Source of the DNA: a virus
DNA: 20,550 bases
Direction: 5' to 3' (one strand)
Virus record (IMG/VR): IMGVR_UViG_3300030333_002007
Location: 1-20,550 of that record
Part shown: one piece after another, positions 2,345 to 20,447 of the stretch
How positions within the stretch are numbered: the first letter of the stretch is position 1
Layout: every line of letters begins with the position of its first letter
Position numbers and translations under genes: made by a program
Notes under the pieces: generated by a model
Told to the model about the DNA's origin: nothing
Seen by the model: the letters and a program-made list of their open reading frames with translations, nothing else
Database searches by the model: none

Positions 2345-2806
2345 TTACAATTTATTTAAAAATCTTGCTATATGATGTACAAATGGTAACAATGTAGCTG
2401 CCATAAATAGATTAACACCTGAGTGTGCTACAGCTATTCGTAATGTATCACCCTTAGGTAAACCATCTGAAACAAGCAGTCCTGCTAACCATATAGTTCC
2501 GGTTGTTCCTATATTAGCACCTAATACTGCAGCAACAGCAGAAGGTAAAGGTAAGAAACCACTTGCTACCAATCCTACGATTGCTGTTGTTGACAGTGAA
2601 CTTGACTGCCACATTAATGTACAAACAATTCCACCTAAGAACATTAGGTATGGATTAGCTATAAAAGGTTCAAGCTGTTCTACTCTACCAAGCGCTTTCA
2701 TTCCGCCTGCAAACATTTTAAGCCCTACATAAAATACTATTAGTCCTACTATAATTTTAAAAACTGGTGTATGATGTATTGAAGCTATATTAGGTAAATC
2801 TGTCAT
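2345..2806 (-). CDS. Single-repeat Na/Pi-cotransporter-like membrane protein
   Basis: A protein of 153 residues that matches one complete repeat of the Na+/phosphate cotransporter II family (PF02690). It has a glycine-rich helix at about residues 17-37, the hallmark QSSS at 67-70 followed by a hydrophobic helix, GANIGTT at 96-102, and a final RIAVAH...NLF helix at 122-140. Cellular members carry two such repeats in inverted orientation plus, often, a PhoU domain; here there is one. It would sit in the inner membrane. The gene lies 3 bases after the coiled-coil gene and uses a GAGGA site within that gene's end. Either a dimeric half-transporter aiding phosphate uptake during infection or a membrane protein reused for another purpose would fit. 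Family call strong, function open. Confidence 0.8.
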   Translation of the reverse strand: MTDLPNIASIHHTPVFKIIVGLIVFYVGLKMFAGGMKALGRVEQLEPFIANPYLMFLGGIVCTLMWQSSSLSTTAIVGLVASGFLPLPSAVAAVLGANIGTTGTIWLAGLLVSDGLPKGDTLRIAVAHSGVNLFMAATLLPFVHHIARFLNKL

Positions 2807-3023: not shown

Positions 3024-3359
3024 TTATCCTCTTCTACTCATCCAGGCTGATGCACCCATATATGCACCGACTATACCTGCTCCTGAGATATAAAATAAAT
3101 TACTAACGTCACTCAATGCTTCCACTCTATCAAGTGGGACCCACGGCAAAAACATTGCCGCGGTAAACACACCCATAGCTATTAAAGTATATCTTGCCAT
3201 CCTTAATTGTGCAAGTTCTTTACGTAATAAAGATTCTGTTTCTTTTATTTCTTTCAAATGTGCTAACTCCGCATCGGATACAACACCATCACCATCCTCA
3301 TCGTATTCGTTGAACCTTGAGTTTTTCTCTAAGTTTTTTTGAATTGCTTTCATTATCAT
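3024..3359 (-). CDS. EF-hand membrane protein, possible holin-like
   Basis: A protein of 111 residues in three parts. Residues 20-31 form a textbook EF-hand loop (Asp20, Asp22, Asp24, Gly25, Glu31 at positions 1, 3, 5, 6 and 12), which normally binds calcium. Residues 32-54 are a charged helix. Two membrane segments follow at about 57-74 and 87-105, with a basic tail. Size and two-helix topology resemble class II holins, yet a cytosolic or periplasmic calcium-binding domain is unusual for them. The start at 3359 is behind GAGAAG; Met3 is an alternative. Domain calls are firm, the lysis role is inference. Confidence 0.75.
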   Translation of the reverse strand: MIMKAIQKNLEKNSRFNEYDEDGDGVVSDAELAHLKEIKETESLLRKELAQLRMARYTLIAMGVFTAAMFLPWVPLDRVEALSDVSNLFYISGAGIVGAYMGASAWMSRRG

Positions 3360-12119: not shown

Positions 12120-12524
12120 TCAGTCACTTGCGGCCGACAGCTCTGCAATCTTCTTTTGCAATTCATCTTCAGACAGCTCTGACGCATCTAACGACAAACT
12201 GGTCTGATCAACTCGTTGCAACTTTGGTTGCTCATATTCGGCAAGTGCTATAGCTAAACGCTCTATAGTCTCTTGGTCTTCTACTTGTATTGCTTTTGCT
12301 AGTTGAACCTTCAATATATCAACAGCAGACGGCATCTCAGTTATAACTTCATCTCTAATCTTTTTAAACTCGGAGGCTGATAATCTCATAGCTTCTCGGA
12401 GCGCTTTATTCTGACGGCGTTTCTCTGCGCCACGTGCTTGCATCTCTCGAGCAGTATCAGAATCTATAACTGGCCTAAGCTGTGCAAGAGAATTTGGGTG
12501 CTTACCGCAATTTTCATAACCCAT
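12120..12524 (-). CDS. Putative terminase small subunit
   Basis: A protein of 134 residues. The start is set at 12524 (MGYEN) because GGAGG lies 5 bases before it; the upstream in-frame ATG at 12536 would place the ribosome site inside the gene. The N-terminal part (residues 1-45) is basic with a KRRQNKALREAM stretch like small DNA-binding phage proteins often found beside terL. The centre is helical (residues 60-95) and the C-terminus is acidic and coiled-coil-like. TerS marks phage DNA and hands it to TerL. The identity rests on this character and on the 13-base element shared only with terL. It lies alone on the minus strand inside the rightward block and is more GC-rich than its neighbours. 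A regulator is the alternative. Confidence 0.55.
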   Translation of the reverse strand: MGYENCGKHPNSLAQLRPVIDSDTAREMQARGAEKRRQNKALREAMRLSASEFKKIRDEVITEMPSAVDILKVQLAKAIQVEDQETIERLAIALAEYEQPKLQRVDQTSLSLDASELSEDELQKKIAELSAASD

Positions 12525-12535
12525 AATAACCTCCA

Positions 12536-12560
12536 TAAATGTCTTTTAGGGGACATTTAA
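12536..12560 (-). promoter_or_regulatory. Hairpin and terL-shared element before the terS-like gene
   Basis: TAAATGTC (12536-12543) and GACATTTA (12552-12559) pair over 8 bases. AGGGGACATTTAA (12548-12560) is identical to 5908-5920 before terL. The element begins 23 bases before the ATG here and 25 before terL, so its placement is conserved. Confidence 0.5.
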
Positions 12561-12628: not shown

Positions 12629-12775
12629 ATGAAAATACATATAACAAATCCATTACTTATTAAAGTAAATCCAGTTGCTAAGACACTTGAAGATCCTAAA
12701 TATCGTCCTCAAGTTATTAAAAGCAAAAAGAAATATAATCGTAAAAAAGAAAGGAAAGACAAATGGCAAAAGTAA
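12629..12775 (+). CDS. Small conserved phage protein, 48 aa
   Basis: Contains NPVAKTLEDPKYRPQVIKSK followed by KKYNRKK. This pattern (NPVAK, then a variable turn, then KKKYxRK) is familiar from tiny basic proteins in many T7-like and other marine phages; no function is known to me. The end overlaps the DUF1599-like gene by 13 bases. The ribosome site is weak. It is the first gene of the replication block after the terminator. Confidence 0.7.
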   Translation: MKIHITNPLLIKVNPVAKTLEDPKYRPQVIKSKKKYNRKKERKDKWQK

Positions 12776-13065
12776 CAGCCTCAACTATATTACATGAAGC
12801 CGCTGAGCTTAAAGAAAAGAAGCAAGCTGATTATCAAGGTGACATGTGGACTGAAGAAGATTACTTTCCATACGGCAATAAGTCGTATATGCATATGATT
12901 CATACTAAATATTTACGTATGAGAAGTCTTGCAGAAAATGAAGACAAAGAAATTAACTTTGAATCATTAGAAGATACGCTAGTAGACATGGCAGTTTATT
13001 GTGCAATGTTCGCTGCATATTTAGAAAATAAAAAGTTAGATAAACCTGTAATGAGGTCAGGATAA
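12763..13065 (+). CDS. DUF1599 / Nmad1-like protein
   Basis: A protein of 100 residues resembling the family named nucleotide modification associated domain 1 (DUF1599, PF07659). It has an N-terminal EAAELKEKKQADYQG helix-turn with Asp23-Tyr24, a central SYMHMIHTKYLRMRSL helix (41-55) and the closing SLEDTLVDMAVYCAMF helix (68-83) with the ExxD pattern of an all-alpha MazG-like fold. Family members sit next to thymidylate-synthase-like base modifiers in phages, as here (two genes on). The exact reaction is not known. Good GGAAAG site. Confidence 0.7.
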   Translation: MAKVTASTILHEAAELKEKKQADYQGDMWTEEDYFPYGNKSYMHMIHTKYLRMRSLAENEDKEINFESLEDTLVDMAVYCAMFAAYLENKKLDKPVMRSG

Positions 13066-13421
13066 TGAGAGCAATACTTATAAATCCTATTGATGAAACT
13101 ATTAAAGAAGTATTCTATGAAGGAAATAAGCAATACTCAAGATTACATTGGATCCAAGATACTATAAATTGTGATACAATTGATGGTGTACGTTTAGATG
13201 AATGGGGTCAATATATGTATGTTGATGATAAAGGAATGCTTACAACTATGAATTATTTCTTTAGATATACTGACAACAGTTATTTTGTTGAACCTATATT
13301 ATTAGCAGGTAAAGCCTTAGTTGTAGGAACTAACGAAGAAGGTGATGATATAGAACCTGAATTAACTATTGGTGATTTAAAATCTAGAATAGAATTTCTA
13401 GGTAGAAAGGCATTACATTAA
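13065..13421 (+). CDS. DUF3846-like protein
   Basis: A protein of 118 residues beginning MRAILINPIDETIKEV, with a VRLDEWGQYMYVDDKG centre and an LLAGKALVVGTNEEGD segment near residue 100. This order is typical of DUF3846, a family common in phages and mobile elements with no settled role. Acidic overall. It is joined to both neighbours by 1-base TAATG overlaps, so it is made together with the Nmad1-like and TS-like proteins. Confidence 0.6.
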   Translation: MRAILINPIDETIKEVFYEGNKQYSRLHWIQDTINCDTIDGVRLDEWGQYMYVDDKGMLTTMNYFFRYTDNSYFVEPILLAGKALVVGTNEEGDDIEPELTIGDLKSRIEFLGRKALH

Positions 13422-14224
13422 TGAGCAGATATGAAAGTAAATATTTGCGTATAGCAGATGAGATACTAATGAATGGTGAATTCAGGGAAACTAGAAATGG
13501 TTGGGTAAAATCTTTATTTACTCAAACATTACACTTTGATATGAGTGATGATAGATTTCCTGTAATTACTACACGTAAAATGAATATTAATAGTGTACTA
13601 GGTGAGTATGCTGCAATAATTAGAGGACCTAAAAATATAAAAGATTTTCAGAAATGGGGGTGTAATTATTGGAATGAGTTCGGAGATCCTGATACTGGCG
13701 AGCTACGCATTGATTACGGTAATAGTTGGGTTGATTATAATGGTGTTAATCAAATAGAAAGATTAATACAGAATATTAAAGAAAATCCTCATAGCCGAAG
13801 ACTAATAGTAGATGCATGGAATCCTGAAAATATACCTACATCTAGCTTACCATGCTGTCATTTTATGTATCAATTTTATGTACAAGATGAAGGCTATGAA
13901 TCCTATTTAGATCTAACAATGTATCAAAGATCTGGTGACTGGATGATTGGTGTTCCTAGTGATATGATATTTGCAGCAACTTTCTTAGCAAATATAGCAA
14001 GTATTACTAACTTAAAACCAAGAAGAATTAATTTAATTGTAGGTGACTGTCATATTTATGAAGAACATTTTGATAAAGTAACTGAACAAATGAGTAGAGC
14101 TATAACAGCACCACCATTATACAGCTTACTACGTCAATTTAAATTTACAGATTTTGAACCTACAGATTTAAATATATTAGACTATAAACATAAGGAGTTT
14201 ATAAAGTATGACCTTAAAAAGTGA
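13421..14224 (+). CDS. Thymidylate-synthase-fold enzyme, probable dCMP hydroxymethylase
   Basis: A protein of 267 residues with the full ThyA layout: Glu62 (base activation), Arg126-Arg127 (phosphate), the nucleophile Cys146-His147 in SLPCCHF, QRSxD at 169-173, and GDCHIY with His211 and Tyr213. The residue aligned with Asn177 of E. coli ThyA, which reads the uracil base, is Asp181 (GVPSD where ThyA has GLPFN). T4 dCMP hydroxymethylase also has Asp there, and in TS this change is known to shift preference to dCMP. I infer transfer of a methylene from folate to dCMP, most likely giving 5-hydroxymethyl-dCMP. A TS with altered residue remains possible. Neighbours (Nmad1-like, MazG-like) fit nucleotide editing. 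Confidence 0.85.
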   Translation: MSRYESKYLRIADEILMNGEFRETRNGWVKSLFTQTLHFDMSDDRFPVITTRKMNINSVLGEYAAIIRGPKNIKDFQKWGCNYWNEFGDPDTGELRIDYGNSWVDYNGVNQIERLIQNIKENPHSRRLIVDAWNPENIPTSSLPCCHFMYQFYVQDEGYESYLDLTMYQRSGDWMIGVPSDMIFAATFLANIASITNLKPRRINLIVGDCHIYEEHFDKVTEQMSRAITAPPLYSLLRQFKFTDFEPTDLNILDYKHKEFIKYDLKK

Positions 14225-14726
14225 ATGGCTATCAGATATAAATGATATGCACTATAAGTTTGGTGCAACAGAGTGGGTAAAAGATATGTACCGCTCAAAG
14301 AATTATAAAATACTAAATGATTTCTTAGCATTTAGATTAGACTTTTTAGAAGAAGAGTTTGAAGAAACTCAAGCAGCCTTCTTAAATAAAGATCACAAAG
14401 AAGTAGTTGATGGTTTGATTGATCTTATTGTTATTGCAATTGGTACATTAGATTTATTTAACTGTGATGCTGATAAAGTATGGAAAGAAATACATAAATC
14501 TAATATGGCTAAAGAACCTGGAGCAAATAAATCCAGGAAGAATCCATTTGGTTTACCAGATATGGTTAAACCTGAAGGATGGAAAGGGCCTAACATAACT
14601 GAAGAAGATTGTGGTATACTTCCTAATATATTTGAAGCAGAAAGAGAAAGACTTCAAATATTAAGAGAAAAGCGTGATCTTAATAATGAACTTAAAAACA
14701 ATGTAGCTAACGCTCAATACGAATAA
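14208..14726 (+). CDS. MazG-like nucleotide pyrophosphohydrolase
   Basis: A protein of 172 residues of the all-alpha NTP pyrophosphatase superfamily. The metal-binding pattern is visible as LDFLEEEFEET (Glu49, Glu52/53) and, one helix later, KEVVDGLIDLI (Glu65, Asp68, Asp72). After it comes the VWKEIHKSNMAK motif and a Gly/Pro-rich stretch (PEGWKGPN) typical of phage MazG-like proteins. These enzymes split NTPs or dNTPs to NMPs; here this could feed the TS-like enzyme or remove unmodified dNTPs. The start lies 17 bases inside the previous gene behind AAGGAG. Confidence 0.8.
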   Translation: MTLKSEWLSDINDMHYKFGATEWVKDMYRSKNYKILNDFLAFRLDFLEEEFEETQAAFLNKDHKEVVDGLIDLIVIAIGTLDLFNCDADKVWKEIHKSNMAKEPGANKSRKNPFGLPDMVKPEGWKGPNITEEDCGILPNIFEAERERLQILREKRDLNNELKNNVANAQYE

Positions 14727-14916: not shown

Positions 14917-16752
14917 ATGAGACTGGTTTTCGATATAGAAACCGATGGTCTTGATGCAACTAAAATCTGGTGTCTAGTCATAAAAGATATAGACACCGGG
15001 CGCATCATGAAATACACTGACGAATCAGATAAGTATGATGGTAACATTAGAATGGGTTTGTCACTATTACAACATGCAAAATTATTAATAGCACATAACG
15101 GAATAGGGTTTGATGCATTAGTAATAAAGAAACTTTATGATATTGATTTGTATGATGGAGATAGATTCTTCGATACATGGATAGCATCTCAAGTATTAAA
15201 TTACAGACGACCACATAAACATGGATTAGCTGGATGGGGTGAGCATCTTAAATATCATAAAGGAGACTACGATGATTGGTCACAATTCTCTGAGAAAATG
15301 ATGGAGTATTGTGTAAGAGATGTTAATTTAAATACTACAATATATAATCATCTTACAATCGAGCTTAATGTTATGGCTAAACGTAACCCTAAAATCCGCA
15401 GAGGTTTACGAAATGAAATGGCAACTGCTAAGTTCGACGCCTATTGTAGATACTATGGATGGTCATTCGATAAAGATAAAGCCTTGAATTTATTAGATAA
15501 AATTAAATCTCGAATGAATGAAATAGAAAAAGTTATTGAACCTAAACTTCCAGCTGTCACTCGATTAATTGATAAGCAACCTAAGACACCGAAATATACT
15601 AAGAAAGGTTATTATACTGCAGCTACTGCACGTATGTTAAGTGAATACCTAGGTGTTGAAGTTAAACCAGAAAACACTAAAGTCTGGGCAGTAGGTAAAG
15701 AGTTTCAAAGAAAAGTAACTAAGCCTGCAAACTTAGGTAACTTAGAACAAGTTAAAGAATATCTATATTCAATTGGATGGGAACCTGATGATTGGAAAAT
15801 GGAAAGATTAGGCAGAGAGTTCATTAAGAAAACACCTAAGCTAACTAAAACTTCTTTAGATAAATTAGGTTGGGATGGATCTGCTATACATCATTGGACA
15901 ACACTTAGATCTAGACGTGGTGTAGTAGAAGGTTGGATAGAAAACTTAAAGAATAACAGATTGCATGGTAATCTATGGGTAGTAGGTACACCTACATTTA
16001 GATGCCGTCATGAAGTTATCGCTAATCTACCTGCAGTAACTGCTGAACTTGGTAAAGAACTTCGTGAATTATTAACAGCAGAACCTGGAAGAAAGATAGT
16101 AGGCGCTGACTCTAGTGGTAATCAATTTAGATCTCTTGCACATTATGCTAAAGATGATAACCTCACTAATCAAATTATGAGTGGAGATATACATCAATAT
16201 AATGCAGACATTATTGATACTGATAGACGTACAGCTAAGACTTGGATCTATGCATTTCTATTTGGTGCTGGTGCTACTAAACTTGGTAAAGTATTAACAG
16301 GTGTTGGTAATATTAAAAGAGGCAAAGAATCTATTGATGCATACGGTAATGCTATACCAGGATTAAAAGCATTAAAAGATAAACTAGTTTCTATGTGGAA
16401 TGTAACAGACTGTCATAGCTCTAGTCTTGAAGGCTATATTCCTGGTCTTGATGGACGTAAAGTATATACACCTCAAGATTATCAGACACTTAATTATTTA
16501 CTACAAAGTTGTGAGGCTATTACAACTAAAGCAGCAGTAGCTTATCAGATGCGAAAGATTAAAGAAGAAAATCTTGATGCACAACCTAGACTTTATTATC
16601 ATGATGAGGTAGCTTGGTCAGCAGCAGATAAAGATGCTAACCGAGTATTAGAAATTCTAATCGAATCATTTGCTGAAGGCCCTAAAGAAATGGGTGTAGA
16701 TATTATGGCAGGTGAAGGTACAATCGGTAATAACTATGCGGAGGTTCATTAA
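14917..16752 (+). CDS. DNA polymerase, family A, with 3'-5' exonuclease
   Basis: Replicative polymerase of 611 residues. Exonuclease: Exo I FDIETDGL (Asp6, Glu8), Exo II LIAHNGIGFD (Asn61, Asp66), Exo III YCVRDV (Tyr131, Asp135). Polymerase: motif A at 398-405 (Asp398), motif B RRTAKTWIYAFLFG at 437-450 (Lys441), motif C HDE at 562-564. Compared with T7 (704 residues) it is shorter. Two key sites differ: the motif A Glu (T7 Glu480) is Gln403, and the second aromatic of the O helix (T7 Tyr530) is Phe449. Tyr445, the T7 Tyr526 site linked to ddNTP sensitivity, is kept. It would work with the SSB and primase-helicase. Confidence 0.95.
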   Translation: MRLVFDIETDGLDATKIWCLVIKDIDTGRIMKYTDESDKYDGNIRMGLSLLQHAKLLIAHNGIGFDALVIKKLYDIDLYDGDRFFDTWIASQVLNYRRPHKHGLAGWGEHLKYHKGDYDDWSQFSEKMMEYCVRDVNLNTTIYNHLTIELNVMAKRNPKIRRGLRNEMATAKFDAYCRYYGWSFDKDKALNLLDKIKSRMNEIEKVIEPKLPAVTRLIDKQPKTPKYTKKGYYTAATARMLSEYLGVEVKPENTKVWAVGKEFQRKVTKPANLGNLEQVKEYLYSIGWEPDDWKMERLGREFIKKTPKLTKTSLDKLGWDGSAIHHWTTLRSRRGVVEGWIENLKNNRLHGNLWVVGTPTFRCRHEVIANLPAVTAELGKELRELLTAEPGRKIVGADSSGNQFRSLAHYAKDDNLTNQIMSGDIHQYNADIIDTDRRTAKTWIYAFLFGAGATKLGKVLTGVGNIKRGKESIDAYGNAIPGLKALKDKLVSMWNVTDCHSSSLEGYIPGLDGRKVYTPQDYQTLNYLLQSCEAITTKAAVAYQMRKIKEENLDAQPRLYYHDEVAWSAADKDANRVLEILIESFAEGPKEMGVDIMAGEGTIGNNYAEVH

Positions 16753-18407: not shown

Positions 18408-20013
18408 TTCATCAGATGCGTTTACAATTTATGAAGACGGCGCATACTGTTTCTCATGTCAATATTCAACTAAGAAAGTAAATAATATGAATGACTTAGA
18501 ACCCGTTGTTAAACCTAATAACAACACAACTCTCGATGAAATCCACGAGTTAAATAGCTTTGCAATTACTTCTCGTGGTATAAGTAAACAAGTAGTAGAT
18601 CACTTCGGAATTAAGATGGCAGTAAATCCTGATGGTTCCGGTGGTTCACACTTCTATCCGTATACAAATAAGTATGATGGTAAAGTGATTGCATATAAAG
18701 AACGTAAGTTACCTAAAAGTTTTGTAACACATGGTAACTTTACTAATATAGAATTGTTCGGTCAAGCAGTAAGTAATGGTGGTAAGACACTTGTTATAAC
18801 TGAGGGCGAGCTAGATGCTTGTGCAGTGGCACAAAGTTTCTTAGATAAATATAATAAAATATTTCCAGTAGTATCTATACCAAGTGCATCAGGTTGTAAA
18901 GTTGTACTTGAACAAAGAGAATGGATTAGAAAATTTGAATCCGTAATATTATTCTTTGATAAAGATGAGGCTGGTCAAGCAGCAGTACAGAAAGTTGCTA
19001 AGATAATCGGTGCTGGTAAAGTTAAAGTAGCTAAGCTATTAGAGAAAGATCCATGTGAACAACTATTAAAGCATGGCTCTAAGAGTTTACTACAAAGCTA
19101 TTGGGATGCAGAAACCTGGTCACCTGCTGGTTTAATAGTAGGTGAATCTATATGGGAACAGTTTCAACAGCGACAAAGAACTAAGTCTAGACCTTACCCT
19201 AATTGTTTATCAGGTTTAAATGATAAGCTCAAAGGTATAAGACAAGGTGAGATTACTTTGTTTACTAGTGGCACTGGCTCTGGTAAATCTACAATAGTTA
19301 AAGAGATTATACTTGATTTGCTTGAAGATAAACCAGATGCTGATGGAGTTGTCGAAGAAAATAAAGTTGGTTTAATATCACTTGAAGAAAGTGTAGGTGA
19401 TACAGCTGAGAAGTTTATTGAGATGACTCTTAACCAAAGACTAGATCATGAAAGTAATAACTTAACTGATTTAGATTTAAGACAAGGCTTTGAGAAAGTA
19501 TTCGGTGATGAACGATTAATATTACTGGATCATCAAGGTTCTGTTGGTGACTCAACATTAACAGATAAGATAGAGTATATGTGTTTGATGGGTTGTAAAT
19601 ACCTGGTGTTAGACCATATAACTATAGCAGTATCAGAAGGATCTGAAGGTCTCTCTGGTAATGAAGCAATCGATAAAGTAATGAGTGATCTACTTAAGAT
19701 TGTTAAGAAACATAATGTATGGTTATGTTTAATATCCCACTTAAGAAAAGCTCCTGGTGGTGGGGCATCCTTTGAAGAAGGTAAGCTAGCATCTATAGAT
19801 GATATTAAAGGTAGTGGTTCTATCAAACAAATATCATTTGATATAGTAGCATTCGCTAGAAACCTAGTAGCTGATAACGCAACTGAACGTAATACAATTA
19901 AGTTTAGAGTATTAAAATCTAGATTTACTGGTCTTACTGGTTCAGCAGGTGCAGCTATCTATAATAATAAAACGGGGAGACTAACTTCAACTGACGTTTT
20001 CGCGGAGATTTAA
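18373..20013 (+). CDS. Primase-helicase (T7 gp4-like)
   Basis: A protein of 546 residues with all gp4 parts. Zinc-binding domain: Cys8, Cys11, Cys26, Cys29 (CPKC/CFSC). TOPRIM: Glu144 in ITEGELDA and Asp196, Asp198 in FFDKDEAG. RecA-like helicase: Walker A SGTGSGKST (299-307), catalytic Glu near 338 in ISLEES, Walker B LVLDH (411-415), motif with His456 in LISHLRKAPGG. It unwinds the fork and lays primers for the polymerase. An internal Met39 directly after the zinc domain could give a shorter form, as in T7 4B, though its ribosome site is weak. Overlaps the resolvase gene by 35 bases; start behind AAAGGACGG. Confidence 0.95.
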   Translation: MSYRQTACPKCDSSDAFTIYEDGAYCFSCQYSTKKVNNMNDLEPVVKPNNNTTLDEIHELNSFAITSRGISKQVVDHFGIKMAVNPDGSGGSHFYPYTNKYDGKVIAYKERKLPKSFVTHGNFTNIELFGQAVSNGGKTLVITEGELDACAVAQSFLDKYNKIFPVVSIPSASGCKVVLEQREWIRKFESVILFFDKDEAGQAAVQKVAKIIGAGKVKVAKLLEKDPCEQLLKHGSKSLLQSYWDAETWSPAGLIVGESIWEQFQQRQRTKSRPYPNCLSGLNDKLKGIRQGEITLFTSGTGSGKSTIVKEIILDLLEDKPDADGVVEENKVGLISLEESVGDTAEKFIEMTLNQRLDHESNNLTDLDLRQGFEKVFGDERLILLDHQGSVGDSTLTDKIEYMCLMGCKYLVLDHITIAVSEGSEGLSGNEAIDKVMSDLLKIVKKHNVWLCLISHLRKAPGGGASFEEGKLASIDDIKGSGSIKQISFDIVAFARNLVADNATERNTIKFRVLKSRFTGLTGSAGAAIYNNKTGRLTSTDVFAEI

Positions 20014-20447
20014 TGGATAAACAACAAAGATACGACGAGTTATATTTAGATATAGCTAAGAGGATCGGTGAGATGTCTCACGATACTGAGCATAAAGTAG
20101 GCGCAGTAATTGTTAAAGATAATAATATACTTGCATTCGGATTTAATGGTATGCCATCTGGTATGCCTAACGAATGTAAGCATGCTAATGGTAGTACACT
20201 ACCTGAAGTTATACATGCAGAAGCAAATGCAATATGTAAGTTAGCGAGGAGTGTAGGGAATGCAGAGGGTGCAACATTATATTGTACTCTCTCACCCTGC
20301 ATGGAATGCGCTAAACTCATAATGCAAAGTGGTATAACTAGAATTATATTTAGTGAAACCTATAAAGATGAAGCAGGTATATTGTTACTACATAATAATA
20401 ATAAAGAAGTAAAAGGAGTAAAATGGAGGAGCAGCTTGGGTACTTAA
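20013..20447 (+). CDS. dCMP deaminase
   Basis: A protein of 144 residues of the zinc-dependent cytidine/deoxycytidylate deaminase family. The HAE motif at 68-70 and PCMEC at 95-99 (Cys96, Cys99) bind zinc, with Glu70 as proton shuttle. The N-terminal HDTEHKVGAVIV strand and GFNGMPSGM substrate loop (43-51) are typical of dCMP deaminases. It turns dCMP into dUMP. Together with a TS-like enzyme predicted to use dCMP, it sets a branch point: dUMP for dTTP or modified dCMP. 1-base TAATG overlap with the primase-helicase gene. Confidence 0.93.
   Translation: MDKQQRYDELYLDIAKRIGEMSHDTEHKVGAVIVKDNNILAFGFNGMPSGMPNECKHANGSTLPEVIHAEANAICKLARSVGNAEGATLYCTLSPCMECAKLIMQSGITRIIFSETYKDEAGILLLHNNNKEVKGVKWRSSLGT

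Follow-up and report, generated by a model that had tools for sequence, protein, structure and literature searches.

Introduction

In the thymidylate synthase (TS) superfamily, the use of dUMP or dCMP is linked to one site, that of Asn177 in Escherichia coli ThyA. According to work cited in PMC8670742, the Asn177Asp change alone makes ThyA prefer dCMP and yields 5-methyl-dCMP. The dCMP hydroxymethylase of phage T4, gp42, requires the same Asp (PMC6400193), and Asp177 is also the mark of TS homologues from phage contigs with modified cytosine (PMC8670742). The preference for deoxyribose in the family is set by the Arg127 and Ser171 sites, which hold Lys and Ala in MilA (PMC5175136). The two reactions at C5 also differ in their use of folate, since reductive methylation turns methylene-tetrahydrofolate into dihydrofolate and hydroxymethylation leaves tetrahydrofolate (THF) (PMC6400193). 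A signature for hydroxymethylases was derived from the 1.9 Å ternary structure of T4 gp42, namely an acid (Asp/Glu) at Cys-3, the third residue ahead of the catalytic Cys, with a Ser as its partner, and the D145N mutant of the T4 enzyme is inactive (PMC6400193). The genus of phage DLP4 includes the 5-methylcytosine (5mC) phage Xp12 and the restriction-resistant phage AXL1 (PMC9206674); the authors of the AXL1 paper state that it is not known how the modification is encoded genetically (PMC9206674). Here we compare with these systems a TS-like gene in a DNA of 20,550 nucleotides from a marine phage (IMG/VR record IMGVR_UViG_3300030333_002007, positions 1 to 20,550), called the window below.

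Results

The TS-Like Gene and Its Clade

The gene and its most informative codons are located as follows.

13421..14224, plus strand: TS-like gene, predicted dCMP C5-methylase, 267 aa, ATG start, no internal stop
13853..13861, plus strand: codons of Cys145-Cys146-His147; Cys146 acts as the nucleophile in catalysis, and Cys145 is an additional Cys typical of the clade
13961..13963, plus strand: codon of Asp181, the base-reading residue at the E. coli Asn177 site

The fold, residues, clade and gene cassette described here are computational observations. The encoded protein is a member of the TS superfamily: it matched PF00303 with 231 bits, above the cut-off of 24.3 (E 1.6e-68, Pfam), and PHROG 160 (E 5e-75), and TIGR03284 (NCBIfam) names it thymidylate synthase with 168 bits (cut-off 108). 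Its predicted structure had a pLDDT of 96, and the top structural match was thymidylate synthase 1f28 (Z 36.2, rmsd 1.4 Å over 266 residues). T4 dCMP hydroxymethylase was absent among the best 50 structural matches, which is not proof of absence. In an alignment with E. coli ThyA (NC_000913), T4 gp42 and SPO1 gp29, all ThyA catalytic residues were kept, including E62 (E. coli 58), R126/R127, C146, H147, R170-S171-x-D173, H211 (E. coli 207) and Y213 (E. coli 209), and the superfamily residues Cys, Glu58, Arg126/127, Arg166, Asp169, His207 and Tyr209 were all present. An earlier note on this DNA had listed the catalytic residues correctly at the positions that it named, and its assignment of Asp181 to the Asn177 site was borne out by the alignment with ThyA.

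Relatives were gathered from IMG/VR, phage records and bacterial genomes, and residues were counted on a non-redundant set. The 177 site held Asp in 53/53 members of the window clade and Asn in 96/96 ThyA-group sequences. The clade includes Vibrio phage VPMS1, Pseudoalteromonas phage PH1, Edwardsiella phage KF-1, Dickeya phage Amaethon, Pelagibacter phage Kolga and two spring-water genomes, while the best matches outside it (Bacteroides phage B40-8, Arthrobacter phages Qui and Heisenberger, one Rhizobium phage and one Brevundimonas phage) have Asn177. The clade was monophyletic in a maximum-likelihood tree (SH-aLRT 99), and its support persisted after removal of the diagnostic columns and the tail (ultrafast bootstrap 100, SH-aLRT 99). 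Tree placement, which the earlier note had proposed as a check, thus gave a well-supported clade of its own with 53 sequences, nearest ThyA, and not a position within the T4-type, Xp12-type or SPO1-type groups; the window clade and the T4 gp42 clade were separate, with 100% bootstrap each.

Several further pocket residues have changed relative to E. coli ThyA: Val93 to Asp, Pro145 to Cys, Trp61 to Ala and Ile79 to Tyr, and Trp83 is also changed. Residue 145 is Cys in 92% of the window clade and Pro in 98% of the ThyA group. These changes, together with the invariance of Asp in one group and Asn in the other, indicate that the Asp177 switch is fixed and old, and not tolerated drift. In the deep clade members L031 and L032 (G009), Leu143 is replaced by Val and His147 is lost, with Asp177 and the tail retained.

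Substrate of the Enzyme

The window enzyme retained both Arg127 and Ser171 of the deoxyribose preference in the alignment. With the literature on Asp177, this makes dCMP the likely substrate. We strongly infer from these residues that the enzyme would act on dCMP and not on dUMP, a well supported prediction, and the preference for dCMP over dUMP put forward in the earlier note is supported by the invariant Asp of the clade and the invariant Asn of the ThyA group.

Neighboring Genes

The genes around the TS-like gene that bear on nucleotide metabolism are as follows.

12763..13065, plus strand: DUF1599 (Nmad1) protein, 100 aa (PF07659, 24.7 bits, slightly below the Pfam cut-off of 25, E 3e-5; phrog_18404, E 3e-16)
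13065..13421, plus strand: DUF3846 protein between the DUF1599 and TS-like genes (PF12957, 35.7 bits), with a 1-base overlap on each side
14208..14726, plus strand: PRA-PH/MazG-like NTP pyrophosphohydrolase, proposed for the dCTP to dCMP step (PF01503, 42.8 bits)
14917..16752, plus strand: family A DNA polymerase (PF00476, 81 bits)
20013..20447, plus strand: dCMP deaminase (PF00383, 87 bits; phrog_174, E 5e-53)

The DUF1599, DUF3846, TS-like and PRA-PH genes overlap end to start in that order, the last two by 17 bases. The Pfam and PHROG matches confirm the DUF1599/Nmad1-like, MazG-like and dCMP deaminase genes that had been recognized from the sequence alone. With near-copies excluded, 31/42 clade loci had a PRA-PH gene within 3 kb, as did 5/5 Xp12-type and 11/25 T4-type loci, compared with 2/47 loci of viral and 0/37 of bacterial ThyA. 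DUF1599 was located within the same distance in 13/42 clade and 4/5 Xp12-type loci, 0/47 viral ThyA and 1/37 bacterial ThyA loci. The T4-type gp42 loci (e.g., L052-L127) had a DUF1599-family protein within 3 kb in 21 of 25 non-redundant cases, so that DUF1599 marks the dCMP-modifying enzymes of three separate clades. PRA-PH and DUF1599 neighbors therefore track cytosine-using enzymes rather than TS in general, although the p values of these counts overstate independence, as the loci share ancestry. The part in producing modified cytosine that the earlier note had assigned to the gene is supported. The two neighbors mark Asp177 enzymes and not ordinary ThyA. T4 gp56 hydrolyses dCTP to dCMP, and by analogy this is likely the job of the PRA-PH and DUF1599 proteins.

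A neighboring DHFR points to methylation, since DHFR is needed only after reductive methylation. DHFR was encoded within 3 kb of the enzyme gene in 13/96 viral clade loci, 7/9 Xp12-type loci and 0/81 T4-type loci; in those 13 clade loci it mostly abuts or overlaps the enzyme gene, and Pfam confirmed it in two such records. Without near-copies the Xp12 type retained 4/5, and the clade had 6/42 versus 0/25 in the T4 type (p 0.08). DHFR was not found in the near-identical 44.5-kb relative of the window, for which the host would have to provide it. The DHFR neighborhood is thus a modest signal in favor of methylation.

Genome Context

The closest terminase to that of the window phage is from Roseobacter phage CRP-7 (62%) and the closest polymerase is from Kolga (40%). 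CRP-7 was rejected as a proxy, as its first 30 kb contain no TS, PRA-PH, DUF1599 or dCMP deaminase gene, and a comparison of base composition and CpG ratio between the window and CRP-7 was uninformative. Relatives of 44.5 and 58 kb encode ribonucleotide reductase and a phage RNA polymerase; in the near-identical relative, a ribonucleotide reductase barrel protein (PF02867) is encoded at L128:12565-14340. Pfam scans of these two long relatives (~44 and 58 kb) detected no glycosyltransferase, carbamoyltransferase, TET-like enzyme or dNMP kinase, so the search for a dNMP kinase or transferase in the wider genome suggested by the earlier note found none there. The window itself contains no decorating transferase or TET-type enzyme in the Pfam scan; for transferases the note had said the same. 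This absence fits 5mC as the end product, which needs no decoration. Neither a second TS nor ThyX was found in 30 relatives, and the supply of dTMP would accordingly rest on the host. The literature searched on VPMS1, KF-1, PH1, Amaethon and Kolga contained no restriction or nucleoside data for these phages.

Other genes were observed in passing. A short Na+/Pi cotransporter-like protein of 153 aa (2345-2806, minus strand; PF02690, E 1e-16) is encoded among the structural genes of the window, and the related contig G004 encodes a phosphate-binding-protein-like PBP_like_2 protein (L130:10034-11059). A 111-aa protein (3024-3359, minus strand) has a weak EF-hand match. A 138-aa ORF (12120-12536, minus strand), also found in relative L002, lies inside the plus-strand early gene cluster and had no convincing Pfam match.

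Discussion

Product of the Enzyme

Since Asp177 alone leaves methylation versus hydroxymethylation undecided, the Cys-3 residue, His147 and the tail were consulted for the product. Leu143, Asp98, Cys145 and the C-terminal tail all bear on this question and were unmentioned in the earlier note.

13712..13714, plus strand: codon of Asp98, which precedes the catalytic Tyr99 and occupies the E. coli Val93 site, the structural counterpart of T4 Ser94 according to PMC6400193
13847..13849, plus strand: codon of Leu143 (Cys-3, the T4 gp42 Asp145 site in the signature of PMC6400193), Leu as in ThyA by alignment
14201..14221, plus strand: C-terminal tail IKYDLKK (E. coli counterpart IKAPVAI), with a motif conserved in the clade, and overlaid in 3D with the ThyA tail

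The Cys-3 residue is Leu in 96% of the window clade, as in ThyA, and Asp in 100% of the T4 group. An acid is present at this position in T4 gp42, in 26/26 T4-type relatives compared, and in SPO1 gp29. The window enzyme also keeps His147, which T4 gp42 has lost. Its tail has the ThyA length and overlays E. coli TS to the last residue, but its sequence differs, with the motif I/L-x-F/Y-x-L-K in the clade and PVAI/V in ThyA. These features, with the DHFR gene adjoining in several members, leave the 5-hydroxymethyl-dCMP predicted by the earlier note unsupported, and with moderate confidence 5-methyl-dCMP is the better prediction from the sequence.

The rival that fares best is a dCMP hydroxymethylase, in which the exocyclic methylene would be attacked by water activated by Asp98 to give 5-hydroxymethyl-dCMP and THF. 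Asp177 suits dCMP in this case too, DHFR is missing from most clade loci, and the T4-type enzymes are also found near DUF1599 and PRA-PH genes. The residue before the catalytic Tyr is specific to the clade, being Asp in 96% and Ser in 4% of its members and Val or Ile in the ThyA group, and E. coli Val93 has been spatially equated with T4 Ser94, the partner of Asp145 (PMC6400193). Asp98 may be the structural equivalent of T4 Ser94, and an acid at this place might serve to activate water or to hold the amino group of cytosine. The Ser/Thr that T4-type enzymes have two residues before the catalytic Tyr is absent, as the window enzyme reads Ile97-Asp98-Tyr99. Nevertheless, the acid at Cys-3 without which the T4 enzyme is inactive (D145N; PMC6400193) is missing, the tail and His147 that T4 gp42 lacks are retained, and several clade members, but none of the 81 T4-type loci, have DHFR adjoining the gene. 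In addition, no carbamoyltransferase that would decorate hydroxymethyl groups was found in 30 related records, most of them fragments. We therefore consider hydroxymethylation rather unlikely. A separately evolved dCMP hydroxymethylase, with the water-activating acid moved from Cys-3 to Asp98 in a tailed, ThyA-like closed site, is likewise rather unlikely.

An ordinary TS that tolerates Asp and converts dUMP to dTMP would agree with the name given by TIGR03284, with the dUMP-making dCMP deaminase in the same cluster, and with the lack of another TS or ThyX in the 30 relatives. However, Asn177 is not found, and the fixed, old switch to Asp with its accompanying pocket changes argues against tolerance. 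Genes resembling dCTPases are rare beside viral ThyA (2/47), and dCMP deaminase is paired with an Asp enzyme in the 5mC phage genus as well, which makes this explanation improbable. Another 5-substituted dCMP, or CMP as the substrate, is very improbable: TS-fold enzymes do include the CMP hydroxymethylase MilA (PMC5175136) and several pocket residues are unique to the window clade, but the Arg127 and Ser171 that are replaced in MilA, where Lys and Ala set the ribose preference, are kept, and the gene is located in a DNA replication cluster.

Comparison With Known Systems

The laboratory Asn177(229)Asp mutants of E. coli and L. casei TS, which are dCMP methylases, share with the window enzyme the ThyA fold, Leu at Cys-3, His147, the tail and Asp. 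Unlike these mutants, the window enzyme is natural, phage-borne and clade-wide, and has extra changes at 93, 145, 61, 79 and in the tail sequence. On the best reading, the clade is a natural counterpart of the ThyA N177D mutant made in the laboratory.

The related phages DLP4, AXL1 and PaMx28 served as proxies for Xp12. Their TS-like genes (DLP4 L039:15766-16707, minus strand; AXL1 L369:4001-4942; PaMx28 L370:2878-3774) code for enzymes that combine Asp177 with Asn at Cys-3 and with Pro147, and on these residues they are the candidate for the dCMP methylase in the genus of Xp12. Like the window enzyme they have Asp177 and no acid at Cys-3, and the cassette of PRA-PH, DUF1599, TS-like gene and dCMP deaminase is shared, in some loci with DHFR as well. 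They differ in forming a separate clade, in Asn at Cys-3 and Pro at 147, in the tail, and in the fusion of PRA-PH and DUF1599; in DLP4, P0003 beside the TS gene is a single protein with a PRA-PH domain followed by a DUF1599 domain, and both window-derived profiles match it. Because of the Asn and Pro, these enzymes are a separate lineage and no direct precedent. The window enzyme probably works like an Xp12-type dCMP methylase though outside that clade.

T4 gp42 shares Asp177, the Cys nucleophile and the Glu and Arg sites with the window enzyme, and many of its relatives have DUF1599 or PRA-PH neighbors; however, enzymes of the T4 type lack a C-terminal tail, carry Asp at Cys-3, Thr at 147 and Ser94, and lie far from the window clade in the tree. 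The dUMP hydroxymethylase SPO1 gp29 shares the TS fold but has Asn177, Asp at Cys-3 and a long C-terminal extension, and a scan found no relatives of it. The T4-type contig L110 carries at ~2064 a second TS homologue that is SPO1-like, with Asp177 and Asn at Cys-3 unlike SPO1 gp29. The MetaGPA TS homologues on cytosine-modified contigs have Asp177 with PRA-PH and dCMP deaminase domains, as in the window (PMC8670742). There, residue 147 also distinguished the modified contigs from the unmodified ones, and the gene was often followed by a carbamoyltransferase (PMC8670742), whereas the window enzyme has His147 and no such transferase was found.

Proposed Pathway

Taken together, the gene is read as a ThyA-derived dCMP C5-methylase in a cytosine-modification cassette, with 5mC predicted in virion DNA, at a probability of about 0.6. 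In the proposed reaction, Cys146 would attack C6 of dCMP, Asp181 would read and protonate cytosine N3 where the Asn of ThyA reads uracil, and methylene-tetrahydrofolate would deliver the one-carbon unit. Hydride transfer in a closed site formed by Leu143, Trp84 and the C-terminal tail would then give 5-methyl-dCMP and dihydrofolate, as in ThyA. The coupled PRA-PH and DUF1599 proteins would probably hydrolyse dCTP to dCMP, supplying the enzyme and excluding plain C from the DNA. Kinases would convert the product to 5-methyl-dCTP, which the phage polymerase would insert, giving 5mC in virion DNA; the family A polymerase would have to accept the modified dCTP. Several points stand against the methylase reading, namely Asp98, a tail chemistry unlike PVAI/V, the small non-redundant DHFR counts and the changed Trp83, Trp61 and Ile79. 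That no kinase for 5-methyl-dCMP was found also counts against it.

Conclusion

The window clade is new and wide, though its kind of enzyme is known; it is predicted to modify dCMP, and 5mC may replace ordinary cytosine in the DNA of its phages. In nature, methylation of dCMP as a nucleotide is known from phage Xp12. If the methylase reading is true, the window clade would be a second lineage, which arose beside ThyA through the same Asn to Asp switch as was made in the laboratory. The lineage would be common in marine and freshwater phages, filed as thymidylate synthase, and would include cultured phages of Vibrio, Pseudoalteromonas, Edwardsiella, Dickeya and Pelagibacter. Genomes with 5mC would thus be predicted in phages that can be grown, affecting their restriction-enzyme sensitivity and the reading of methylation data, and a three-residue code (177, Cys-3 and 93) would sort the TS-like enzymes of phages.
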